54,890 nucleotides of DNA from Pseudomonadota bacterium (lineage in GTDB: Bacteria; Bdellovibrionota_C; UBA2361; OMIW01): contig OMIW01000142.1 in the NCBI GenBank assembly GCA_900299205.1, forward strand, positions 1 through 54,890. Reading direction: 5' to 3'. Below, piece after piece: positions 22,207 through 48,240 of this stretch. The position numbers and the translations under genes are program-made. The notes under the pieces are model-generated. The model saw nothing but the letters and a program-made list of their open reading frames with translations. It was not told where the DNA came from and searched no databases. How positions within the stretch are numbered: the stretch's first letter is position 1; every line of letters begins with the position of its first letter.

Positions 22207-23520
22207 CTAGGAAATACCCTCTTTCTGCATACGCTCAAGTACGGCGTGCTCGAGAACTTTTTGATAGTTATGTTCTGAGAGATGTGGCCTGATCTTGGCA
22301 AGGGATGCAGTAACCTCACGCTCAATATCCAGCCTCGTCCTGCGTGATATTGGTGCCGCAGAAACGAGCTTCGGCATGCGCTTTGGAATCGAGAATGTTT
22401 GATAATTCTCAACAGCTCTGTATAAGAAACCAACTGGACTTCGATTCACCAAATGGCTGCCAGAAGATACGAGAGCATCGTAGTAAGCGATAATTTGTTC
22501 AATTCGGGAGACAGAATCCGGAGATTTGCCCTCCAGTAATTTGATGGCTTGGCGCTCCTTTAAACCACGAGCAACCAGGGACATCACAACCTTTTTTGTA
22601 TCAATTTTTTTGGCTTCCAGCACCCTTGATCGCGTGAGCTTTAGATTCTCAGAGAGCTGAGGCTCCTTTCTGGGCGCTTCCTGAGAAATTACACGGGTGC
22701 CTCGCTTTGCAATCACCGTCAACCGTGTGTCAGCTCCCCTACCCGAATAGGAAAATTGCTCGATGAATCCTTGTTCGCACAGCTCGGTCAAGGCTGGATC
22801 AAGTTGTTGTCGTAATGAGCTGGCAAATCGATAATTTCGAGATATACCCAGCTTTTCATGTGATAAGGTGAAAAGGTTAATTTCAAGACACGTTCGGTAC
22901 CAGAAGTGTTTATCCAGGAATCGATATAGACGCTTCGAAACAGCGGAGCGTAGGGAGAGGTAGAAGTCGAGGTCCAGTTTTTTGATAAACCCGACCTGGA
23001 AAGATTTGAAAATTGTTTCACTCCAGGTGAAGTAGCTCGATTTTAGATCGGCATCGCGAGAGGTATTTATCTCATATGCGTCTATCAGTCCGAAGACCTT
23101 AGTGCTGTGACATTTCGCATCATTGTCAAAAAAAGCATTGGTAGCTTTGATCCTAAGACCCGCCAATCGGTCGAGCGCTTTCTGAAGACGGCTATAGCTT
23201 CGTCCCTCCGTACTCCACCGAAGAGTTCGTAGAAGCTCATACCTCGTAAAGTGCACTTTACGAGTTTGAATTCCATCATCGACGGTCAGTTTGAGAAGAC
23301 CGAGCAAAACTTCGTCGTCCGAGGATGTTGGGAGTCCAAATTTGTCTGCACCCGTGATGAGCCATTTCCGTTCGATGAGATCTCCGTTCTTTGTTCTTAT
23401 GGAATCGTTGAATTCGAGAGTCTTCAGGTTTGGGTTAGCTCGTGTTGAGAGAACCGTAAGCGGAAACTCAGCGAGATTCATTTCATCTCGGGATACGATC
23501 CGGCGCGGTAGTTCGTCCAT
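22207..23520 (-). CDS. Plasmid-type replication initiator protein A (RepA/RPA family)
   Basis: LPRRIVSRDEMNLAEFPLTVLSTRANPNLKTLEFND...HFTRYELLRTLRWSTEGRSYSRLQKALDRLAGLRIKATNAF...SETIFKSFQVGFIKKLDLDFYLSLRSAVSKRLYRFLDKHFWYR: winged-helix initiator pattern; tandem 22-bp repeats immediately upstream. Confidence 0.85.
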   Translation of the reverse strand: MDELPRRIVSRDEMNLAEFPLTVLSTRANPNLKTLEFNDSIRTKNGDLIERKWLITGADKFGLPTSSDDEVLLGLLKLTVDDGIQTRKVHFTRYELLRTLRWSTEGRSYSRLQKALDRLAGLRIKATNAFFDNDAKCHSTKVFGLIDAYEINTSRDADLKSSYFTWSETIFKSFQVGFIKKLDLDFYLSLRSAVSKRLYRFLDKHFWYRTCLEINLFTLSHEKLGISRNYRFASSLRQQLDPALTELCEQGFIEQFSYSGRGADTRLTVIAKRGTRVISQEAPRKEPQLSENLKLTRSRVLEAKKIDTKKVVMSLVARGLKERQAIKLLEGKSPDSVSRIEQIIAYYDALVSSGSHLVNRSPVGFLYRAVENYQTFSIPKRMPKLVSAAPISRRTRLDIEREVTASLAKIRPHLSEHNYQKVLEHAVLERMQKEGIS

Positions 23521-24101: not shown

Positions 24102-24896
24102 ATGGCGCTCATACTGGGGGTAGTTAATCAGAAGGGAGGGGTCGGAAAGACCACCACGAGTGTTAACTTGGGTGCAGCTTTGGCTGCGCAGCGAAAGAGA
24201 GTTCTTCTCGTTGATATCGATGCACAGGCAAATGCCTCGACTCACTTGGGGATTGCAACGGGGGATGAGGAAGAGACGGCCGAGAGTGGCTTAGAGAGGC
24301 AAGTTCCAGATTTTACGAGCTATGACCTTCTTAAGGGAACAAAAAATGTTCATGAAGTAGCAATAAAAAGGTCTGAAAATCTGGAAATTGTCCCCTCGAG
24401 TCTTCTTCTGAGCGCTGCGGACCTGGAGTTGGGAGGGGTGGTTGGCAGGGAACTTCTTCTAAAGAGGGCGCTGAGCAAGGTTACGGGTGATTATGATGTG
24501 ATCATAATCGACTGTCCACCCGCATTGGGGTTGCTCTCTCTCAATGCCCTAGCTGCTGTTCAGAAAGTTATAGTCCCCGTTCAGAGCGAGTATTTGGCTC
24601 TGCACGGGGTGCGTCAGCTTCTTGATACTATCGATCAAGTTCGTGCGATTTATAATCCAGATCTTGTCGTTGGAGGAGTTCTCATCTGTCTTCATGATTC
24701 GCGGAGAAGACTCGCCCGAGCGGTTGCGGAAACAATCCATTCTTACTTCGGGGATCTTGTTTTCAAGACGGTTATTCGTACTAACGTGGCCCTCGCAGAG
24801 GCACCTGCGCACGGAAAAACTATCTTTGAGTATGCGGAGAAATCCTCGGGAGCCGAAGATTACGCGTCACTGGCGATGGAGGTGATGAATGAGTAA
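24102..24896 (+). CDS. parA: Chromosome partitioning ATPase ParA/Soj
   Basis: VNQKGGVGKTTTSVNLGAALA, VLLVDIDAQANASTHLG, IIDCPPALGLLSLNAL; no N-terminal HTH (chromosomal-type). Confidence 0.95.
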   Translation: MALILGVVNQKGGVGKTTTSVNLGAALAAQRKRVLLVDIDAQANASTHLGIATGDEEETAESGLERQVPDFTSYDLLKGTKNVHEVAIKRSENLEIVPSSLLLSAADLELGGVVGRELLLKRALSKVTGDYDVIIIDCPPALGLLSLNALAAVQKVIVPVQSEYLALHGVRQLLDTIDQVRAIYNPDLVVGGVLICLHDSRRRLARAVAETIHSYFGDLVFKTVIRTNVALAEAPAHGKTIFEYAEKSSGAEDYASLAMEVMNE

Positions 24897-34960: not shown

Positions 34961-37393
34961 TTAGTGGGCGCGCCCAGTATCGGGGCCGATAATCCCTCGG
35001 AGCAGGAGAGCTCCCAGTTTCCTGTGAATTGACTCCAACGGTTCGTCAGACGCATTTACATAGTCCTCATTGAGGAACTCCGGGTGATACCGAAGAAGGT
35101 GTTCAAGCACAAGACGATCTCGGGAGGACTTCGCTATCATTCGCCATATGTGATATCCAATATCAGCGAGATCATCGTGCCCCCACTCGATTAGCTTAAT
35201 GATGTACCGAGCTGTCGTGAGAAGCTCTTCAGGTGCGGGAGGACGGTCAAACCGAAAGCTGTCGGCTGAGGTTCGCATAATATCAGCAAGATTAACGAGA
35301 TTGGTAATGAGTCGAGGGATGCAATCACGAGAGAGAATTTTCCTCTCGAGGGTCGAGTCGAGATACGTCATGGTCAAGGGAACAATTCTCCTCATTAACG
35401 CATCGTTCAGCTCTCGCTCGTAATTTTTTGTGAATATCAGGAAGAGATTGTCGAGATTGCAATCGACCGGTGGCCCCGATTGGAGCCAGATTCTTCCGTC
35501 TTGAATGGGACCGAGAAAGAAAGTATCGATGTGAGCATCAACTTTATCAATCTCATCTATGAGAAGCAGCACCGGTTGGCTCTGAGAGCGAAGAAATGCC
35601 TGGGCAAGCACTCCTAGTTCAATGATGTCACTTTTTCGAATTCGAACACCGGCAGACGCTCGGGCAATCGCAACCTCATTTCTCATTTCGATGAGGTATC
35701 GCGTATCCATTCCGGTGTAACACTGGAGGGTCATGAACTCCGCGCCAGCCACTCGAGCGAGCATTTTTCCCAGGAAACTTTTTCCGCAACCTGGTGGCCC
35801 CTCAAGGAGTAAGCTTCTGACCATATCTCTTCTTACCGCGCATATGAGAGCTATCTGCTTCGCAAGATATGGCAAACACTCGTAGCCAACGCGCGCTAAT
35901 TTCTCGGTAACCTTTTCCGGACCCCCCAAATGTTGCCAGCCAATTTTTTCGACCTGAAAAGCTTTCTTTCTGCGCAATCTATCAGGATCTTCCACCACTC
36001 CCTTAAGAATGATTCGACCCAGCTTCGAGTACAGTTGCTTGAGAGATGCTTTGCGTGGATCCGAGATAAGAGAGTCAGCGAATTCCGGGTGGAACCTCAT
36101 GACCTGTTCAAAGATAACTCGATCTCGCTCGGATTTTGCCATGAGAGGCCAAACAGTTCGACCGACAACTTCAAAGTCGGTTATTCCCCACTCGATAAGC
36201 ATCCCGAGGTATCGCCCACACCGCTGCAACTCCTCGGGGGCAGGGGGCCGCTCGAATTGATAGTGACCCTGGCACCCACGCATAAAATCAACAAGATAGG
36301 AGAGATTTGACGAAATTTGAGGCAGGGCAGCTGCTTTCAGAACCCGTTTCTCTGCAGTGCTATCAAGATAGGTCATGGTGACAGGAGTTACCCGTCGCAT
36401 GAGTGCATCATCAATCTCTCGATTGAAGTTCTTGGTAAACATCACGAGTAAGTTATCAAGCTCTGCCTCGATTGGTGGTCGAGACTCGAGATGAATAACG
36501 CCATCGTTGAGAGGACCGAGAAAAAATGTATCAACCGCAGTGTCTACCTTATCCAACTCATCGACGAGAAGAATAACGGGACGGGTCTGGGAGGTGAGAA
36601 AGGCGCGAGAAAGAATGCCGAGATTGACCAGATCTTCATCGTTGATCGAACCACCGGCCATGGCACGGGCAAGGCCAACGGGAGACGGTTGCTCGATAAG
36701 GTGCTGGGTATTCATCCCGGGATAGCATGTCAATACCATCAACTCAGCACCCGTGAGTTTCGCGAGGCACTTGGCAAGGAAAGATTTGCCGCATCCTGGT
36801 GGGCCCTCAAGGAGAAATGAGCGCACGATAGCGGAGGGGGTAAGGAACATGAGTGAGAGCTGAATGGCGATGAAGGGTCCTGCATGATAGCCGACCTTTT
36901 CCAGCTTGGTCACCATTTCTGCGGGATTGCCGAGTGCACGGAACCCGAGATTTCTGGGCATATATTCGACGCTGACTTTTCCAAGGCTTCCAGCGTCTCC
37001 CGTATCATCCTCCTGTTCAGGGGGTAGTAGCTCATACGGGATTATCGTGAATACGTCATCTTGCTGAGACTTTATATACTCATCGATTGATACGGATTCT
37101 CCCTTGGGCCTAAAGAGACTGACCAGTTGTTTGGAAAATCCAGCTAGTCGAAGATTTGGCTCTTGAGGGAGTTCGCTTTCAGAGGTCGATTTGCTCGATT
37201 GACTGAAATCGGATGAGCCAACGAGGTCTTGGAGGATAAATCGGTCTTCTGCGAGACCCTCACTAACGGCATAGGCAGACTCCTGAGGTTCCGGGGAGTG
37301 GCCCGTCTTACGGAGGAATTTCTCAGTCGATGCTTGAAGGGAATCGCTCCGATTTCCAGGGATACGGCCCCCTTCAGATGGAGGTTTTTTCAT
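34961..37393 (-). CDS. Tandem-duplicated MoxR-like AAA+ ATPase (two complete modules)
   Basis: Two copies each of LLEGPPGCGKSFL (Walker A), ILLVDELDK / LLLIDEIDK (Walker B), M/IFTKN (sensor 1), DALMRRV/I and a C-terminal HPEF...LGRI/LGALL..G region. Confidence 0.88.
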   Translation of the reverse strand: MKKPPSEGGRIPGNRSDSLQASTEKFLRKTGHSPEPQESAYAVSEGLAEDRFILQDLVGSSDFSQSSKSTSESELPQEPNLRLAGFSKQLVSLFRPKGESVSIDEYIKSQQDDVFTIIPYELLPPEQEDDTGDAGSLGKVSVEYMPRNLGFRALGNPAEMVTKLEKVGYHAGPFIAIQLSLMFLTPSAIVRSFLLEGPPGCGKSFLAKCLAKLTGAELMVLTCYPGMNTQHLIEQPSPVGLARAMAGGSINDEDLVNLGILSRAFLTSQTRPVILLVDELDKVDTAVDTFFLGPLNDGVIHLESRPPIEAELDNLLVMFTKNFNREIDDALMRRVTPVTMTYLDSTAEKRVLKAAALPQISSNLSYLVDFMRGCQGHYQFERPPAPEELQRCGRYLGMLIEWGITDFEVVGRTVWPLMAKSERDRVIFEQVMRFHPEFADSLISDPRKASLKQLYSKLGRIILKGVVEDPDRLRRKKAFQVEKIGWQHLGGPEKVTEKLARVGYECLPYLAKQIALICAVRRDMVRSLLLEGPPGCGKSFLGKMLARVAGAEFMTLQCYTGMDTRYLIEMRNEVAIARASAGVRIRKSDIIELGVLAQAFLRSQSQPVLLLIDEIDKVDAHIDTFFLGPIQDGRIWLQSGPPVDCNLDNLFLIFTKNYERELNDALMRRIVPLTMTYLDSTLERKILSRDCIPRLITNLVNLADIMRTSADSFRFDRPPAPEELLTTARYIIKLIEWGHDDLADIGYHIWRMIAKSSRDRLVLEHLLRYHPEFLNEDYVNASDEPLESIHRKLGALLLRGIIGPDTGRAH

Positions 37394-39225
37394 GATAACC
37401 CCCTTCTCTGTTGGTTGGTGTAGATACGCTCACATACATTCACCAGAACATCCCGAGCCTTACCCGCAAGTCCCTCCTTGAACGCGGCGAGGTTGAGGGG
37501 GACAAGAATATTCTCTGAGATGGATTCCTCGGTTAGGCGACCTATGCGGACCGTATTTATCGTAGCCAAAGTATAAAAGCATAGGACGATCCAAAGTTCG
37601 ATGGCGAGAGGTTCGAACGATAGCTGCATTACGCGCTCAGAGAGGGGTTGAACGGTCGCTGCGAGCTTCTCCATCTGATCAACCAAATCAAGTTTATTGA
37701 TCGGCGCGTCGGGATCAATTTCGTAGCGAGAGGCTGCTTTCACTGCGGCTAAAAAGGCATCGGAAATTTCTCGTTCTTCCTGCCAATCAGAGCGTGGCTG
37801 GTACAACCCCAGGAGGGCGACATTGACCAGTGCTTCACGAACTTCATAAGGCTCGACGGCGGTTTCATGATTTCCGTCAAAGTGAGCGATGGGCTCCCGA
37901 ATAATTGCAACGATATTCTCCATCGTCCGTTCAATTCCGCTTTGAAAGGATTTGAGGATAGTTGCGGCTTGTTCAGTTGAGGGTGATTTAAGAGTTTGAT
38001 TGAGCACTGGCTCAACAAGCTTGCTCAGCTGATTTCTGAGCTGTCTTCCTGCAATCCCGTAAGCGGGATCAATTGCCCAAAACGTCGTCGGTAGCCAAGC
38101 TTGAATTGAAGAGGCATATCGGGGGAAGGGTTCGCCGAGATTTCTGAGTAAATAGGGGATATAATCCACCGTTTGCGATAGGCGAATAAATGGATGTTCG
38201 AAGGGTACCCAGGTTGAGCGAGATTTTTCTAAAGGCCTCTCCTCGAGCTTGGTGATCAGGCGGTATTCAAGGTAGGGGATTGATGATGGCGATAACTCTC
38301 GGGCTGACAGTTCAGCTCGCAACTCGGCTAGTCCTACATATCGGGGGCCTGGTTGGATTGGTTGATGAAAAAGAAGGGAAGGGCAAACAAGAAGGTTGTC
38401 CTTTGTGCGAATATCACAAACAAATCGCCATATTGATCCGTAAATGTCGGTGGTCTGATTCGGCTCTATGTATCGGTTCAAGACGGCATGAGGAATGAGA
38501 GTATCCCGAACGTAGGCGCGAATCATGTCCTCGTGATACCAATACTGCGATTCCTCTCGATACATATCGTGTAGCTTGGCGAATATTTGCTCGATGAGGG
38601 GGTATACGGTTTCATCGGGGTAAGTTTTGCCGTCTCGAGCAGCTTCTATGAACCTTTGTGATTGCATCCAGAGTTCGCGAAAAAATGGCGCAACCTCGTC
38701 ATTTCGGGTAAAACAGCAAAAAACTCGGTGAGCGATAAGTTCCCCAAGCAGATTTTCAAGACATTGAACAACAGGTCGTCCGAGGGCCATGTTGTCGTTA
38801 CACCGCTGAAGCGAGACATCAAGATCCTTGTGAACTCGGTTGAGGGCAGCTTCATGGACCCTATTTATCCGTTGTACGAGCGTACGTAGTGCCCTCCGGT
38901 CGGTAATGAGCGCCGGATCGTCAGTGAACTCATCGAGAAATAATTCAAGTGCTGAGGCTCGTGTCGAGGTAATCGGGTCGAATGAGTTGCAAAACCCGAG
39001 AACGACAGTGCGTTGTTCGAACTCTCTCGTGGTGGGAGCGTTTGGGCCGGCCTCTGAGCAGAGCTTCTCAATAAAACCCCTCACAGAGGTGAGCTGATCT
39101 GAATCGACTAACCAATCTGCGAGCATCATCGGATCCGAGGGTATCGGTATACCGTGGCGCGAGAGGGTCCGTGAGAGAGCCTCTTGTTGACTTAATGAAA
39201 GTTGCAGGGAAGAAGAGCTTCGCAT
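37390..39225 (-). CDS. Uncharacterised 611-aa helical protein, translationally coupled to the AAA+ ATPase
   Basis: Long ORF overlapping the AAA+ start by 4 bp (ATGA); no recognisable family motif. Confidence 0.8.
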   Translation of the reverse strand: MRSSSSLQLSLSQQEALSRTLSRHGIPIPSDPMMLADWLVDSDQLTSVRGFIEKLCSEAGPNAPTTREFEQRTVVLGFCNSFDPITSTRASALELFLDEFTDDPALITDRRALRTLVQRINRVHEAALNRVHKDLDVSLQRCNDNMALGRPVVQCLENLLGELIAHRVFCCFTRNDEVAPFFRELWMQSQRFIEAARDGKTYPDETVYPLIEQIFAKLHDMYREESQYWYHEDMIRAYVRDTLIPHAVLNRYIEPNQTTDIYGSIWRFVCDIRTKDNLLVCPSLLFHQPIQPGPRYVGLAELRAELSARELSPSSIPYLEYRLITKLEERPLEKSRSTWVPFEHPFIRLSQTVDYIPYLLRNLGEPFPRYASSIQAWLPTTFWAIDPAYGIAGRQLRNQLSKLVEPVLNQTLKSPSTEQAATILKSFQSGIERTMENIVAIIREPIAHFDGNHETAVEPYEVREALVNVALLGLYQPRSDWQEEREISDAFLAAVKAASRYEIDPDAPINKLDLVDQMEKLAATVQPLSERVMQLSFEPLAIELWIVLCFYTLATINTVRIGRLTEESISENILVPLNLAAFKEGLAGKARDVLVNVCERIYTNQQRRGLS

Positions 39226-39345: not shown

Positions 39346-39381
39346 CCCTTTCAGCGAGCGATGTTTTGCCCGCTGAAAGGG
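39346..39381 (-). terminator. Perfect 11-bp inverted repeat ccctttcagcg...cgctgaaaggg just 3' of the giant glucan synthase gene
   Basis: Read directly; no strong T-run on the minus strand. Confidence 0.5.
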
Positions 39382-39384
39382 ATA

Positions 39385-42300
39385 CTAAAGCCCCTTTTTG
39401 TCAGATTTTTGGGTTGATCGTCGCTTTTTAGCGCCGAGAACGGCAACAACGGCGATATCTCCCGAAAAATCACCGAGTCGAATGGTGTTTCCAGTCATCT
39501 GGGTTCCGTTGACCGAAATTGAGCCAATACCCGACTCAACCCCGGAGGGATTCTCAAATCTGATTTGGATCTTGCGTGGTGAATGAAGCTCTACGCTCCA
39601 CTCTCGCCACACCGCCGGAACACATGGATTGATGACGAGGGTATCACGTTGGAGAGAAATGCCAAGGAGGTGATGTATGGCTGCTTGATAAAGCCAACCA
39701 GCAGAGCCGGTATACCAACTCCAACCTGCTCGTCCTTTGTGGGGCTCAACACCGTAGACATCGCCACATAGGACGTACGGTTCGCCCTGGTAAACGTGGA
39801 CTCCTTCGGAGGTCGCTCCATGGGTGATAGGATTGAGCATTTGGAAGAGCTCGAATGCACGGCTACCATTCCCCGCCAGTGCTTGGGCGATGACAACCCA
39901 AGTGGCAGCATGAGTGTATTGCCCACCATTTTCCCGAATCCCACGGAGATACCCCTTGATAAAGCCAGGCTCAGATCTTCCGGAGAAAAAGGGCGGAGTA
40001 AGAAGCTTAATTATCCGTGCTGAAGTATCGACAAGATGCTCATCGACACTTGCCATCGCCATCATCGCCCGCTTTGTATCTCCCGTTCCAACGATAACGC
40101 TCCATGTCTGAGCCAGAGAATCTATCTGGCATTCGTCATTTTCGGCGCTTCCGAGAGGAATTCCTTCATCATCGTAGGCACGCCGATACCACTGACCATC
40201 CCAAGAAGTGTTCTCGATAGAAGAAACTAACTCAGATGCTCGTCGAGAAAATTCTTCCGATCTCTCGTCGCCGCGAGCTTCCGCGATCGGTGAAAAGATC
40301 GAGAAGGTATGGGCAAGAAACCATCCGAGCCACACACTTTCGCCCCGACCCTTACTGCCGACCTCGTTCATTCCATCGTTCCAGTCTCCGGCTCCCATCA
40401 GGGGCAATCCACGAGAACCCAGCCGATATGCGCGCTCTAACGCACGGATGCAGTGTTCGTAAAGAGTTCCTCGTTCTGCTGAGACCGAGGGAATAAGGTA
40501 GCTCTCATCCGAATCGCCAAGCGGCGGCGCTTCGAGGAACTGGATCACTTCATCAAGTATCGCGGTGTCACCAGTTACTTCGAGATATCGGGCAACTGCG
40601 TAAGGTAGCCATACGAGGTCATCGGTTATTTTTGTGCGAACTCCACGACCCGTCGGAGGATGCCACCAATGCTGAACATCTCCCTCAATAAACTGTCTCC
40701 CTGCATGAAGGAGAATCTGTGCCCGGACCATTTCGGGACGAACAAGAAGTAGAGCCAGTGAATCCTGAAGTTGATCCCGAAAGCCGAAAGCTCCACCACT
40801 CTGATAAAATCCCGTACGGGCAAAGAGTCGGCACCCAATAGTTTGATAGAGCAGCCAACCGTTTACAAGAATATCAAAGCTTCGTTCAGGAGTTTTAACC
40901 TGGATCGCCGATAGTGTGCTGTCCCACCAATGGTTCGCCACTTCGCGATCATGACTATACGTTTCATGTTGTCGGTAGTGTGGAGCCGTGGAGCGAAGCC
41001 CTTCGATAGAATCACATTCGCCGAGGAAGAAAAGAGCTGTTCGTTCTTCACCTGGCTCGAGATTGAGGTGCACCTTAATAACTCCGCACGGGACAAAACC
41101 TGATCCGACTCGTTGCGATAACTGGACGAGGTTTCGCCGATTGGTTCGCTGACTTGAAGAACGCTGGGACCCAGCCGATTCAAGACTTAATGGATTGCTG
41201 ACATCTCGGTCCCGACCAATAAACTCAAGCTTGTCGGTTGTGAATGAAATGATGCTGAGGTTTGAACCTAGAAAGACCACTTTGCCGGCAAACTCATTGT
41301 TGTAACGGTTTACCGCAGTAAGAACCTGTGCACCTGGCTCGTATGCCGTGGAGAGATGTCTTTGAGCTTCTTCGGGTGCTATTCCAAGGACCCAATCAAC
41401 GTATAGATATAACTCAAGTCGTCGCTGAACCACATCCTCATTCCTCAATCTCAGCGACCACCATTTGACTGGCGAATCGGAAGCAACCCGGATGGTAAGT
41501 TCTGAAGAGATGGCTATGTGATTTGCCTGAAATAGGCTTTCTCCGAATCGATGAGTTACGATTGTCTTCGAATCACGGGACACAGGACCGGGCGTCGGAC
41601 ACCATACATGACCACTTTCGGTATCGCGAATATACAGTACCTCGCCCGCCGGGTCGCTCACTGGATCGTTCGACCACGGGGAAAGACGATTCTCCCGGCT
41701 GTTCTGCGCCCAGGTGTAACCGCCTCCCGACTCAGTCACTAAGGTTCCGAATCTCCTGTTTGCGAGAACATTACTCCACGGCAGAGGAGGCGTAGATGAT
41801 TGGGAGACGATCAGCTGATATCCTCGCCCCTCTTCGACGAAGGAGCCGTAACCGTTTTCGAACTCACCACTCTTCGGCTGCAAGGTGACCCGCGGATATT
41901 CCATCTGTCGACTGAGATCGAGCATCCCGGGAGCGAGAGGAGGAGTAATTGCAAAGAGCTGATCGAGCTTAAGCTGCTCTTCAAGCGATCCATCAGCTCC
42001 GGAGAAGACAGCACGGGAAACGGCTTCCAGAAGAGTCAGTTCTTCATTCGAGAGTTGCGATGCGGCACGAAGGAAAATGCCACCATTTTTATCGAGCATA
42101 CCAGAGCTCGGGGTCGATCGGATGATGTGTTGCACCTCCTCCTGAAGCTCCTGAAAGTAGCCCCCCGGATACTCGTTAACAATGACGAGATCCGAAGAAA
42201 TACCCCTCGCTCTGAGGTACGCATGGCCGAGGATAATTTCCCGAGCCAGTTTAAGGTGGCCTCCGTCGTAAATTTTAAGAAGGAGTATCGGTAGATCCCC

Positions 42301-45300
42301 GGAAATCCCAAATCTCCAAAGTGCTGATTGTTGAAGATGATTGCGAGTAATCAGCTCCGCCGAACCTCTCAAATGCTCAACAGGAAAGAGAATGGCGGTA
42401 CCGAGCGCTTGGAAGAGGTGGGTCTGGCGAGCAGTGTATTGCTCATTGCGAAGCTCAATACGGCTCTGACTCCACGCCAGTTCAAAGGCACGGGTAATGC
42501 TGTGGAAATCGCGGTATTTGCTGGTGAGATGCTGGAGGACCTCAGGAGAACGCGCTACTCCCGTGATAAAAGATAATGCATGAGATTCAGTGGGATCGAG
42601 CTCGACCCGCGCGCGAAGACTGAAGCAAGGGTCCAGCACACTTCCCACGGTATTTGATAGCTTCCGCTCGCCCATCGCAAAGGGATCGTGAATAGTTCGG
42701 CCTCGTCCGATAAAGGTGGGTCGTGATGTCTCGTACTGGAGCCTGTCCCATACCGTTCTCATAACAACTGAATGGAAGAGAAGAAGCGGGGCTTCGTGTC
42801 GTGACCGAGGCCGACGTGATAGGATTAAGGCATCATGCTCCTCGTCGAAAACTGATTCGACAAATAGTCGTTGAAAGGCCGGATGGGCCCGATCCGCGCG
42901 TGCGCCAACCAGAGCGACCTCTCCGAAGCTCGTAATCTCGAGATTCCGCTTTCTATCGGAAAGGTTGGTGAGGGTTAGTCGTCGAACCTCAACATTATCT
43001 TCCTGCGCGACAGTGATTTCCAGAAGGCTCAGTATTTGATTATCCCTTCGGCAGAACTCGGCTTTATCGCCCTTAAATACCACGGAATAAAGTTCGGGTT
43101 CAGCTCTGGATGGATTGTAAGTGGCTGACCAAACTTCACCTGAATCGAGGTCGCGAATGAAAAGGACTGAGCCCCACAGATTTGCAGTAAGGTCCTCTCG
43201 CCAACGGGTGATGGCGATGTCACGTTCGAAGGAAATAAATCCGCTTCCCGAATTGTCCACCATCGTGGTGAGGGTTCCGTTCGAGAGCAGATGTGTTGAT
43301 GGATATTGGGTAAAAGGCGTCGAAAAGATCCTCTCTTTTCGACTTCCCTCTCGTTCAGACTCCTTCGTCGCAAATGCGAGGGGAGATTGGCGGGGCTCAG
43401 AATGCGGTATCCGGGAGGGAAACTTCTCATGCAGCAAAACCTCGACCGCTTTGATGATTGGATCTTGATGAAATCGCTCCTGGAAAACCCCATCACAAAG
43501 GACATTCGCTATCGTCGGCAGGCTCATCCCTTGATGGTGGGCGAAAAAGGAACGCACAACGTGGAATGTCTCATCTTCCGTAAGCCGATCTTCGGTAAAA
43601 TCTATCGCCTCGTAAAATCCGTATTCTCCACGAAATCCATCTCTCTCTAGTCGACGCAGATTTTGGACGGCAGCGATTGGTCGAATGGGTAGTGCGAGAA
43701 CCGTTGAATAAGGTGAGACGACGAGGTCATTTTCTAAACCGCGCTTAAGGCCGAGGCCAGGGACTCCGAACGCGCGATACTGGTACGTCGCATTCAGATC
43801 GACGCCACTATGAGCTGACTCAGAGATGCCCCATGGAACACCACGCCGGGTTGCGTACTCCCGCTGTGTATCGATGACTCTCCGATAGGTTTGACCGAGA
43901 AGAGTTTCTGCGTAATCGCGTTGAACAACGAGAGGCATCAGGTATTCGAACATGGTGCCACTCCACGATGCGAGCGCAGCGCCCCCCGGAGTATCGACGA
44001 GTGTGCGACCGAGCGAAAACCAATGCTTCATCGGAGCATCTCCCTTGGCAATCGCTATCATACTGAGCAGTCGCGATTCCGAGGCAAGAAGGTCATAGAA
44101 GCTCCGATCTTTTCGGGCCATCTCGACGTTGAGACCGATAACAAATAAATTCTTTGATCCGTCAAAAAGAAATGAAAAATCGAGTTCCTCAAAGATATCA
44201 GTACAGGCTTGCTTAGTTTTATCGACGACGATTTTTAGATCACCAAGTATGGTGGCTGAACGTCGCGCTGCGCTTAGCCACGGCTCATGACCGAGGTCAC
44301 CTTGGCTAGAATCCTTGGGTAGGGCAGTTGCTGCTCCGAGGGAAAGGGCCATCGCAAGAATTGAAGAAGGTGACGCCTCAGTTAACGCCAGGCTTGCAAC
44401 AAGCTTTCCTTCGTCGGGAGAAATCTCAGCCTGAGAGCCTCGTTCAACAAAAGGGGCAACCCATGCCACGAGCTCTCGCTGCTCGAGAAGCTGTCCGAGC
44501 TCCGCGATTTCTGCAAATATCTCTTTTAGCGCATTCCGCCTGCCTGAATCCGACTCATCAGGACCATCCGAGCTACATACCCCAGAAATCGCTGAGATAA
44601 TCTCAACAAAAAGCTGCACGGTAAGTCGATCATAATTCGTGTAATTGGCAAGGACCGCCTGAATGGGCTCAATTGTATCGCTAAGGTGAGATTTCTCTTG
44701 CAGAAGAGCTGTCAGACGGGCAATCAGGTGGTGGATAAATGAGGGTTTGATGATGGGGCCTCGCCATAGAGCATCGAGAGAAGTTCGTATCGCAAGGAGG
44801 TGACCGGCAAAATTGCCGCTATCAACGGAGGAGACGTAACGAGGGTGGAGCGGAGCCAGGGTCCTGATATCGTACCAGTTGAGTAAATGACCATTGTACC
44901 GCTCAAGTTTGGGCAAGGTTTCGAAAATCTTCGATAGAAGGACGAGTACTGTCCTACTATCCTCGTAACCGAGCTCATAGGCGGACACCGCGCTCATCAT
45001 CGAGAGGCTAATGTTAGTTGGGGAGGTGCGCTCTGCCACAACTCGCTGAGGTGTTTGCTGCAGATTATCTGGGATGAGGTAATGATATGCAGGACGAAGG
45101 TGGTCTTTGAAATATCTCCACGTTTGATACCCCACTGAGAGCAGATAGCCACGATCCTCGGGAGAGAGACCAGATGTCGGGGGCTGGGGGCGGGCTGCAA
45201 GGAGGGTTGCTGCTACCGGAGATAGAAACCAGATCGCGATAAGTGGCAGGGCGGCCGAGAGTCGGTCAGGAGCGGATACTGAGACGAGTATCGCTGTGAA

Positions 45301-48240
45301 AGCGGAGATTCGGAGAGCTGGAGCAAGAGAACGCACAAAGCTCCCAAATGAAGAACCGAGTCGTCGCTCAGATGCTGCTGCCGTCTCCCATTCAAGAAGC
45401 TTTGTTCTCGGGCCATATATACGGTATAGGGTTACGCTTACCGCATGAACCATCAGATAGGCTTGGTGGGGTAAAAATATGAGAAACAGCACTGCCTGTG
45501 CGCCGTGTTGTATGAGGTCTCGCCCCACTCCCCGAAGGTAATCCCCAAGCGATATCCCTACCGGGGGTGAGAGAACAACTCCAGCGACGCTCGTATACAT
45601 CGGAAACATGAAGACGGGCAGCATGACGAGAGCCCAAGCGAGAGTGCTTCCGGGAAGTATCGTCCACGAGGCCACGAGGAAGAGAAATAGCATGGGAGCA
45701 ACGAGACTTCTCCTTAGATTGTCGAATATTTTCCACCTACCTAATCCGGGAAGGGAGGATGGAACCTTCGTATGGGTCGCATCTGGCACGAGTGAACCGA
45801 GCCAGGGGAGAAGCTGCCAATCACCACGGACCCAACGATGCTGCCGTCGCGCATGCACGTGGTAGCGAGATGGGACCTCGTCGTAAACCTCAATATCGGT
45901 GGCTAGCCCGGTTCGAGCAAATATGCCCTCGAAGAGGTCATGACTGAGGATCGCGTTCTCCGGTACTCGCCCTTCGAGTACTTCCGAAAAGACGGAGACA
46001 TCGTAAATCCCCTTGCCGAGGAACGACGCATTCCCAAACACATCCTGATAGAAGTCAGATATTGTCTGCGTATATGGATCAAGCCCGAGATCCCACGAAT
46101 AAATTCTCGAAAAGCGAGAGGCGAAACCACTGGGAAGTGAATAGCTCACTCGTGGTTGAATAATCCCATAACCGCGCTTGACCATCCGAGAGACGGGATC
46201 TATCACAGCCCTATTGAGCGGATGGGAGATGGTGCCAATCAGTCTTCGTGCACCGTGTGGCGAGAGATGAGAGTCTCCATCGAGGGTAATAACATACTGG
46301 ATGGACCGTAAAAGGGCGCGCTCACGGTCACTCAACACAAATGAGGTTGGACCTTTCCCCCCGATCTCCCGATTTAGCTCCTCGATTTTACCGCGCTTTC
46401 GTTCCCATCCCATATAGCACCGTTCCCGATCGTTCCACCGCCTTTCGCGGAAGAAGATAAAGAAGCGAGGTGCCTCCGGGCTGAATCCGTGTCGAGAATT
46501 AAGAGCAGCGATAGCCGCACGACCAGCTGCAATTATGTCGCGGTCTTGAGACTCATCGGGTGTTTTCCGATCGGGAAGATCGGCGGTGATCGCCAAGAAT
46601 ATGTTATCATCTTCGTTGGCATGCCACCGTACTTCAAGGCTATCGATGCACGATGAGAGTGAGTCGTGATTATCAAATATCCCGTGCACTATCATTAATG
46701 TGCGGCTCGTCTCAGGTATGCCATTTTCAAGGTGCAGCTTCGGTAATGCGGATGGGCGAACGCACTGGTGGATGCACCATTGAATAAGACTCATCGCAAC
46801 ATCTGATGCGGGTATACATGCAACCAGAATGAGAATTGTTGCAGGAAACCAGCCGCTGCCGAGGGACAGAGCCCACATCCCGAGGAGTGTCGAGAGGGTG
46901 AGTGCGGAGATGCCGATGCCTCCCGCATAGAGAGGAAGCGCATGTCGGCGCAGCATCCTCGCTCCGACCATCGGAATGGAGGGGTGGTACCCGATCATGT
47001 GCTCAAATAGGGATCGGCCCTCATCGACGAGGTAGTATCCGATGTGGCGTCGTGCTTCGGCCCGATGTTCCTCGATAGGATCGCTTGTTTTGGGTGGATT
47101 TTGAGTCAGTGTGACGAGCCGTTCGGCGATCTCGTGCTCGGCCAGCCGGGAGCGTTTTGCGAGAATTTCGAGATGATGTCGATAAAGGTCTCTCGTCTCA
47201 AAGTCGCATTGGGCATATACCCCGCTCGGATCACGGAGAAATTCTTGATGAACGAGGCTCATTGACTCAAACCATTCGCGCCAATTAATGCTGCTCATCT
47301 CGCGCATGGAGGTTATTGAATTCGCGATTGATATCTGGTCAAACGCCTGACGTTGATGATCCGCACGAATGAGCTCCTCAGGGTCGGCCCCCTGTTCCCT
47401 AATCCGCTCTTCAAACCATTTAAGGGCTAGTGGGGCGCGTCCTCCCCGCAATCGGAGTTGACGAAGTACGTGAACAGCGCCTCTTCCCCCGAGTGACGGA
47501 CGCCCTTTAATCTCCTTCGCGAGCTCGATAAGAGTGTCGGTACCAGCATGGGTCGTGCTTGCCTCAGTCGAGGTTGTCACCCGTTGAAGGAATCCATCGA
47601 CGTAAAGCAGCTCCTCTCGCTCCTCAACAATTCGTTGAATGAGCCGCCGCAGATTTTCAACAAGTGCAAACTTCAGCATCAATGGAACCGCCCACAACTC
47701 TCCGGTAGTGAGCGGTTTCCGGGACTGAAAGCCCGTAATAAACGCACTTAGGATCTCCGGCTCGACGACGGAATCGGAGTGGATAATTACTTCGAGGGTC
47801 AGCGCATAAACTCGAGGGTAGCCAGCGGACTCTCCCTCGGCGACCTTGGGGAGGGTCTTGTCATATTTTTTGGGGAAAAATCGCCGCACCTCGGAGATAT
47901 GCTGCAGGACGATATGGTGATTATCGAGTAACCATTCCGCCCCCGGAGAGAGGCTTTCTCCCTGCTTCGCTGCATCAGCGAGGGTCCGGTAGGCTGCATC
48001 CAGAAAGGCCACGTTACTGAGGAACCGACTTCGGAGTGCGCTACTGCTTCGTCCGTCTCGATAGGAGGTGTCGCTGTCGGCGAGAGTGGCTGCCCGGTCA
48101 TGAAGGGCCTCATTGGCGAGGATGGTGGCTCGGAGGGGGTCGATGGGCTCGGTCGGTGCCCGGGAGGTTGAACGAGGGGTGCGAAGGGTGGCGAGAAGAT
48201 TGGCAAGGGGCGAGGACAGGGACGGGCGCAGGTGCTTCAT
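39385..48240 (-). CDS. Giant cyclic beta-1,2-glucan synthase-like protein (NdvB/ChvB type: GT84 + GH94 glycoside phosphorylase modules)
   Basis: 2951 aa; LFEHMIGYHPSIPMVGARMLRRHALPLYAG, ILSHDLFEGIFARTGLATDIEVYDEVPSRYHVHARRQHRWVRGDWQLLPWL, PWSNVLANRRFGTLVTESGGGYTWAQNSRENRLSPWSNDPVSDP, WWHPPTGRGVRTKITDDLVWLPYAVARYLEVTGD, LMGAGDWNDGMNEVG. Confidence 0.93.
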   Translation of the reverse strand: MKHLRPSLSSPLANLLATLRTPRSTSRAPTEPIDPLRATILANEALHDRAATLADSDTSYRDGRSSSALRSRFLSNVAFLDAAYRTLADAAKQGESLSPGAEWLLDNHHIVLQHISEVRRFFPKKYDKTLPKVAEGESAGYPRVYALTLEVIIHSDSVVEPEILSAFITGFQSRKPLTTGELWAVPLMLKFALVENLRRLIQRIVEEREELLYVDGFLQRVTTSTEASTTHAGTDTLIELAKEIKGRPSLGGRGAVHVLRQLRLRGGRAPLALKWFEERIREQGADPEELIRADHQRQAFDQISIANSITSMREMSSINWREWFESMSLVHQEFLRDPSGVYAQCDFETRDLYRHHLEILAKRSRLAEHEIAERLVTLTQNPPKTSDPIEEHRAEARRHIGYYLVDEGRSLFEHMIGYHPSIPMVGARMLRRHALPLYAGGIGISALTLSTLLGMWALSLGSGWFPATILILVACIPASDVAMSLIQWCIHQCVRPSALPKLHLENGIPETSRTLMIVHGIFDNHDSLSSCIDSLEVRWHANEDDNIFLAITADLPDRKTPDESQDRDIIAAGRAAIAALNSRHGFSPEAPRFFIFFRERRWNDRERCYMGWERKRGKIEELNREIGGKGPTSFVLSDRERALLRSIQYVITLDGDSHLSPHGARRLIGTISHPLNRAVIDPVSRMVKRGYGIIQPRVSYSLPSGFASRFSRIYSWDLGLDPYTQTISDFYQDVFGNASFLGKGIYDVSVFSEVLEGRVPENAILSHDLFEGIFARTGLATDIEVYDEVPSRYHVHARRQHRWVRGDWQLLPWLGSLVPDATHTKVPSSLPGLGRWKIFDNLRRSLVAPMLFLFLVASWTILPGSTLAWALVMLPVFMFPMYTSVAGVVLSPPVGISLGDYLRGVGRDLIQHGAQAVLFLIFLPHQAYLMVHAVSVTLYRIYGPRTKLLEWETAAASERRLGSSFGSFVRSLAPALRISAFTAILVSVSAPDRLSAALPLIAIWFLSPVAATLLAARPQPPTSGLSPEDRGYLLSVGYQTWRYFKDHLRPAYHYLIPDNLQQTPQRVVAERTSPTNISLSMMSAVSAYELGYEDSRTVLVLLSKIFETLPKLERYNGHLLNWYDIRTLAPLHPRYVSSVDSGNFAGHLLAIRTSLDALWRGPIIKPSFIHHLIARLTALLQEKSHLSDTIEPIQAVLANYTNYDRLTVQLFVEIISAISGVCSSDGPDESDSGRRNALKEIFAEIAELGQLLEQRELVAWVAPFVERGSQAEISPDEGKLVASLALTEASPSSILAMALSLGAATALPKDSSQGDLGHEPWLSAARRSATILGDLKIVVDKTKQACTDIFEELDFSFLFDGSKNLFVIGLNVEMARKDRSFYDLLASESRLLSMIAIAKGDAPMKHWFSLGRTLVDTPGGAALASWSGTMFEYLMPLVVQRDYAETLLGQTYRRVIDTQREYATRRGVPWGISESAHSGVDLNATYQYRAFGVPGLGLKRGLENDLVVSPYSTVLALPIRPIAAVQNLRRLERDGFRGEYGFYEAIDFTEDRLTEDETFHVVRSFFAHHQGMSLPTIANVLCDGVFQERFHQDPIIKAVEVLLHEKFPSRIPHSEPRQSPLAFATKESEREGSRKERIFSTPFTQYPSTHLLSNGTLTTMVDNSGSGFISFERDIAITRWREDLTANLWGSVLFIRDLDSGEVWSATYNPSRAEPELYSVVFKGDKAEFCRRDNQILSLLEITVAQEDNVEVRRLTLTNLSDRKRNLEITSFGEVALVGARADRAHPAFQRLFVESVFDEEHDALILSRRPRSRHEAPLLLFHSVVMRTVWDRLQYETSRPTFIGRGRTIHDPFAMGERKLSNTVGSVLDPCFSLRARVELDPTESHALSFITGVARSPEVLQHLTSKYRDFHSITRAFELAWSQSRIELRNEQYTARQTHLFQALGTAILFPVEHLRGSAELITRNHLQQSALWRFGISGDLPILLLKIYDGGHLKLAREIILGHAYLRARGISSDLVIVNEYPGGYFQELQEEVQHIIRSTPSSGMLDKNGGIFLRAASQLSNEELTLLEAVSRAVFSGADGSLEEQLKLDQLFAITPPLAPGMLDLSRQMEYPRVTLQPKSGEFENGYGSFVEEGRGYQLIVSQSSTPPLPWSNVLANRRFGTLVTESGGGYTWAQNSRENRLSPWSNDPVSDPAGEVLYIRDTESGHVWCPTPGPVSRDSKTIVTHRFGESLFQANHIAISSELTIRVASDSPVKWWSLRLRNEDVVQRRLELYLYVDWVLGIAPEEAQRHLSTAYEPGAQVLTAVNRYNNEFAGKVVFLGSNLSIISFTTDKLEFIGRDRDVSNPLSLESAGSQRSSSQRTNRRNLVQLSQRVGSGFVPCGVIKVHLNLEPGEERTALFFLGECDSIEGLRSTAPHYRQHETYSHDREVANHWWDSTLSAIQVKTPERSFDILVNGWLLYQTIGCRLFARTGFYQSGGAFGFRDQLQDSLALLLVRPEMVRAQILLHAGRQFIEGDVQHWWHPPTGRGVRTKITDDLVWLPYAVARYLEVTGDTAILDEVIQFLEAPPLGDSDESYLIPSVSAERGTLYEHCIRALERAYRLGSRGLPLMGAGDWNDGMNEVGSKGRGESVWLGWFLAHTFSIFSPIAEARGDERSEEFSRRASELVSSIENTSWDGQWYRRAYDDEGIPLGSAENDECQIDSLAQTWSVIVGTGDTKRAMMAMASVDEHLVDTSARIIKLLTPPFFSGRSEPGFIKGYLRGIRENGGQYTHAATWVVIAQALAGNGSRAFELFQMLNPITHGATSEGVHVYQGEPYVLCGDVYGVEPHKGRAGWSWYTGSAGWLYQAAIHHLLGISLQRDTLVINPCVPAVWREWSVELHSPRKIQIRFENPSGVESGIGSISVNGTQMTGNTIRLGDFSGDIAVVAVLGAKKRRSTQKSDKKGL

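Follow-up and report, generated by a model that had tools for sequence, protein, structure and literature searches.

MoxR ATPases are almost always regarded as partners of vWA proteins. Several AAA modules within one chain are known from Midasin (Rea1) and dynein. MoxR ATPases are described as remodelling protein complexes, mostly together with vWA proteins (PMC9976466, PMC13036017). CoxD, a member of this group, has ATPase activity and occurs as a dimer and as a hexamer; a trimer of dimers served as the basis of its model (PMC3471820). The locus described here was real and mildly unusual: its tandem CoxD-like ATPase, from a conserved family that has no adjoining vWA partner, was coupled to an orphan protein. 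The window analysed was the whole of one contig (C142; 54,890 nucleotides) from a 2.45-Mb draft genome of 206 contigs, and the pair, its parts and the upstream glucan synthase gene with its hairpin all lay on the minus strand.

The ORF list placed P0001, an 810-aa ATPase with tandem AAA+ modules that belongs to the CoxD-type MoxR group, at 34961..37393, and Pfam matched it with AAA_5 in two stretches (4e-23). Alignment A1 delimited AAA+ module 1 with its C-terminal helical region at residues ~145-475 (35969..36961) and module 2 with the same region at residues ~480-810 (34964..35956). A motif scan located Walker A GPPGCGKS at residue 197 (36782..36805) and Walker B LLVDELDK at residue 275 (36548..36571) of module 1, and Walker A GPPGCGKS at residue 532 (35777..35800) and Walker B LLIDEIDK at residue 610 (35543..35566) of module 2. 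The sensor-1 FTKN followed at residues 318 and 653, and DALMRR, with the RR pair of the arginine finger, at residues 329 and 664. Both modules thus carried Walker A/B, sensor 1 and the arginine finger in the MoxR order of the AAA_5 type, which bore out the initial annotation of two complete AAA+ modules and added the arginine finger to its list. Internal duplication with both sites kept, as had also been proposed, agreed with the 49% identity of the modules over 320 residues and with their intact motifs. The “~100-aa tail ending HPEF” of the same annotation was only partly right: a C-terminal region exists, but it is the lid-like helical part of the AAA+ module itself and can be aligned with CoxD-type ATPases. 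The N-terminal ~140 residues (36965..37393) had no counterpart in relatives and a low-confidence model, and were probably disordered, as judged from family comparison and AF2. When AlphaFold was run with 34 CoxD relatives, module 2 was predicted well (pLDDT mostly 75-95), and the packing of the modules was unreliable (pTM 0.48; Foldseek TM ~0.2). The Walker A/B, sensor-1 and RR residues were conserved in nearly all of 40 family modules. The exception came from G012, whose tandem ATPase had lost the Walker B and sensor-1 residues of module 1 (L054:6014-6937, minus strand) and is thereby a natural one-site tandem.

The ATPase family was searched for in 46 genomes of the phylum, all of one class, and was present in 27 of them. 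It came in single-module and tandem forms that were ~50-57% identical. The single-module form was found in most families, and the source genome itself held a second, single-module copy (C4:6945-7916). The tandem form, which at least four of the phylum's genera have, was found in the source genome, in G009, in three genomes of one genus of family f4 and in a genus of family f11; G005 was not counted because its contig covers only the end of one module. In a tree of the modules, the first modules of families f10, f4 and f11 formed one clade (support 98/91), which points to one old duplication in those families. The modules of the source genome were long-branched, and a shared and a separate duplication were both compatible with the data (AU p 0.15-0.21). 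The tandem ATPase is a conserved family, confined to one small phylum in the searches made. Its nearest relatives outside the phylum were single-module CoxD-type MoxR ATPases at 22-35% identity (25-35% across the matched stretch), for example from Pseudonocardia and Alcanivorax, and the best of them had a vWA CoxE gene downstream. No match to vWA_CoxE (PF05762) was found on any contig carrying the ATPase family of the phylum, the source contig included, though some of the draft contigs are short and may hide a few neighbours. The vWA_CoxE matches elsewhere in the phylum lay on other contigs.

On the minus strand, the gene of a 611-aa orphan protein (P0002; ORF list, 37390..39225) came upstream, reading from 39225 to 37390, and was followed by the ATPase gene, reading from 37393 to 34961. 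Beyond the ATPase gene lay a convergent FtsY gene. The coordinates of the two ORFs confirmed the 4-bp ATGA overlap noticed earlier. A Shine-Dalgarno-like GAAGGGGG (37399..37406) was located within the 611-aa gene, 5 nt ahead of the ATG of the ATPase, and together with the overlap it makes translational coupling of the two proteins likely. A 4-bp overlap with a ribosome site inside the preceding gene is usually a sign of co-translated, functionally linked proteins. Codon use and base composition by codon position of both genes agreed with those of the remaining genes of the contig. The chance of a stop-free stretch of 611 codons was ~2e-13, and this, with the coding-like codon positions, argues that the 611-aa ORF is a real gene.

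The 611-aa protein had no transmembrane-like stretch and no internal repeat. It gave no match in Pfam (above cut-off), NCBIfam, PADLOC, PHROGs or PDB sequences, and none among phages, plasmids and viral contigs; none turned up either when 84,980 species genomes were scanned by pattern, an approach that reaches close relatives only. The DxSxS/DxTxS MIDAS motif was absent, which, with the lack of a vWA_CoxE match on the contig, upheld the view that this is not the usual MoxR-vWA pair. The protein likewise stayed outside the known MoxR-partner families (vWA, CoxE and ViaA type) in the profile searches, remote homology being possible given that there were no relatives from which to build a profile. 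Conservation of the pair beyond the source genome, which had been named in advance as a test, was not found: the other 45 phylum genomes gave no relative of the 611-aa protein at E 0.001, and they included no second genome of its family, so that its orphan state may be a sampling effect. Weak matches in these genomes were dismissed as being under 15 bits or crossing stop codons. The tandem ATPase was thus conserved and not peculiar to this genome, but the pair of ATPase and 611-aa protein, as it stands here, was not a conserved two-gene system. The AlphaFold model suggested for the 611-aa protein was run from the single sequence and had a pLDDT of 38.7, too poor a fold for use; the protein is probably helical, and nothing beyond that can be said from it. 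Since no relative was found, it is the gene coupling that argues for the proposed role of the protein.

The neighbourhood survey, which the initial annotation had also proposed, found no locus with a relative of the 611-aa protein, but it did reveal another large protein beside the tandem ATPase. In f11, the gene of a ~1055-aa protein followed the tandem ATPase at a distance of -25 to +87 bp in each of the nine loci whose contig includes the following gene. Pfam Annexin was matched by 7 of the 16 members of this family (best 7.8e-6), and its profile matched annexin structures at 1e-6, while its best-sampled member was anonymous by Pfam scan. Loci of this annexin-repeat family (~1000-1060 aa) included L049:10765-13932, L165:8437-11583, L168:9227-12253 and relatives. 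Open frames of great length, up to 4440 aa, in G014:C28, G004:C147, G015:C247 and G019:C23 also contained annexin matches, some of these matches being under the Pfam cut-off. The annexin-repeat gene directly adjoined the tandem ATPase in one genus-level group only; it was ~7 kb off in G017 and on other contigs in G009. A literature search returned nothing relevant on MoxR with annexin, MoxR with Wzc, or MadB. The 611-aa protein could itself be a strongly diverged annexin-repeat protein and the counterpart of the ~1055-aa partner, so that the system would be a tandem MoxR with an annexin-like membrane scaffold throughout. The operon neighbourhood is shared, the 611-aa protein is large and probably helical, and sequence divergence is far quicker in the annexin family than in the ATPase: between G018 and G017, the annexin-repeat proteins share 24.6% identity and the ATPases 58.3%. 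The source genome had no detectable annexin-repeat protein, and by genus the family co-occurred with the tandem ATPase (3 of 4 tandem-bearing genera against 2 of 27 others; Fisher p 0.008, kinship ignored). However, left-out annexins of other families were recovered by the profile at 128-387 bits, whereas P0002 was not among the best matches of the annexin-family A3 profile, all of which were shuffled copies, and hhalign of P0002 against A2 gave a probability of 0.2. The gene order also differs, with the orphan before the ATPase and the annexin after it, and we consider this origin unlikely.

Two further explanations were weighed against the pairing of the ATPase with a dedicated partner. It is quite improbable that the locus is a defence-like conflict system of the MoxR ternary kind, in which the fast-evolving 611-aa protein would be the sensor or effector upstream of MoxR, as VMAP is in VMAP-MoxR-vWA. 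The locus does resemble the VMAP ternary systems (PMC7159879) in that the third component is encoded ahead of the MoxR gene and in that this component is variable and all-helical. Unlike those systems, the source locus had no adjoining vWA gene, FtsY being convergent after the ATPase, its MoxR was tandem, and no VMAP domain was recognised; Pfam, NCBIfam and PADLOC gave no match to VMAP-C in the 611-aa protein, and these libraries may contain no VMAP-C model. The absence of any PADLOC match for this protein also speaks against a conflict system, as does the distribution of the ATPase, which was not patchy but extended to almost all well-sampled members of the order; no mobile context was seen. 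The PADLOC matches of the ATPase (PDC-M37B and IetA) were short AAA-core stretches and were not taken as evidence of defence. Somewhat unlikely, but to be taken more seriously, is that the coupling arose by chance, the 611-aa gene being specific to the lineage and unrelated to the ATPase, which would act alone or with a partner encoded elsewhere. The 611-aa protein was missing from all relatives searched, and the other homologues of the ATPase, single-module and tandem alike, do without it; the 4-bp overlap and the ribosome site of the ATPase inside the 611-aa gene are what a chance coupling would leave to be explained.

The giant cyclic glucan synthase gene reported upstream on the same strand was indeed there, 159 bp from the 611-aa gene. 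It encodes a protein of 2951 aa with GT, glucoamylase and GH94 domain matches (39385..48240), a neighbour whose membership in the unit is putative. A strong 13-bp hairpin without a T run (39347..39380) lay directly past its stop codon (z -3.5 for the 165-nt stretch) and occurred once in the genome, and no promoter was found in a search between the glucan synthase and the pair. The only link between the pair and the glucan synthase is that their genes adjoin in a single genome. Wza/Wzc-like exopolysaccharide export genes preceded single-module orthologues at five loci in four families (L038, L042, L043, L048 and L050), other single-module copies adjoined sigma-54 regulator or biotin genes, and a divergent flagellin gene lay on the opposite side of the tandem ATPase locus of f11 where contigs extended that far. 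The Wza/Wzc neighbours and the glucan synthase beside the pair hint at the envelope, but weakly, because the neighbourhoods (Wza/Wzc, flagellin, biotin genes, glucan synthase) differ among lineages. Elsewhere in the window, Replication initiator protein A was matched by a 437-aa protein (22207-23520, minus strand) whose gene stood close to a ParA-like gene (24102-24896). The G+C dropped locally there and the GC skew turned nearby (22-24 kb), and this region is possibly related to replication or partition.

The reading that we tentatively favour, and rate as somewhat short of probable, is that the pair forms an ATP-driven remodelling machine of the CoxD/MoxR kind, in which the usual vWA co-chaperone was lost, the motor was doubled and the 611-aa protein serves as a dedicated partner. 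The two fused modules would amount to a covalent dimer, and by analogy with CoxD, which forms dimers and hexamers, a single ring of six modules could be built from three tandem chains; two stacked rings as in p97 would be an equally possible outcome of the fusion. The 611-aa protein, made together with the ATPase, may bind it as a dedicated adaptor or may itself be the remodelled client. The partner slot, which in a related family is taken by the ~1055-aa annexin-repeat protein, would change fast. The client may be a component of the envelope or of the exopolysaccharide, which is a weak step of this scheme. A wider proposal, which we regard as doubtful, is that of a phylum-restricted class of tandem MoxR proteins that dropped the vWA co-chaperone and uses large helical scaffolds of membrane-binding type, annexin-repeat proteins in most tandem genera and, in the source genome, a 611-aa protein of wholly new fold; the ring would be closed by three chains of the fused dimer. 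A conserved, phylum-wide MoxR family without an adjoining vWA gene, found repeatedly in two-module form and linked in some lineages with annexin-repeat proteins, would show that the vWA co-chaperone is replaceable, and bacterial annexin-like proteins, whose role is obscure, would gain an ATP-driven partner open to testing. The coupling to the ATPase also provides a binding hypothesis for the 611-aa protein, which belongs to no recognisable family.

Among named families, the best match of the ATPase was the MadB family AAA-type ATPase of NCBIfam (NF047784; 133 bits in four stretches), and membership was rejected since this score was far under the cut-off of 475 bits. Among solved structures, the module profile matched Midasin (Rea1) best (E 4.5e-16), but Midasin and dynein are eukaryotic and have six modules per chain together with other domains. 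The annexin repeats in the tandem-ATPase partner of the relatives resembled bacterial annexins (PMC3894181), whereas the 611-aa protein had no annexin similarity. CoxD of Oligotropha carboxidovorans and the CoxD-type MoxR ATPases differed from the source ATPase, which had two modules per chain, an identity of 22-35% to them and no adjoining CoxE vWA gene; nevertheless, the AAA_5 fold, Walker A/B, sensor 1, the RR finger and the C-terminal helical region could be aligned with theirs across the entire module.
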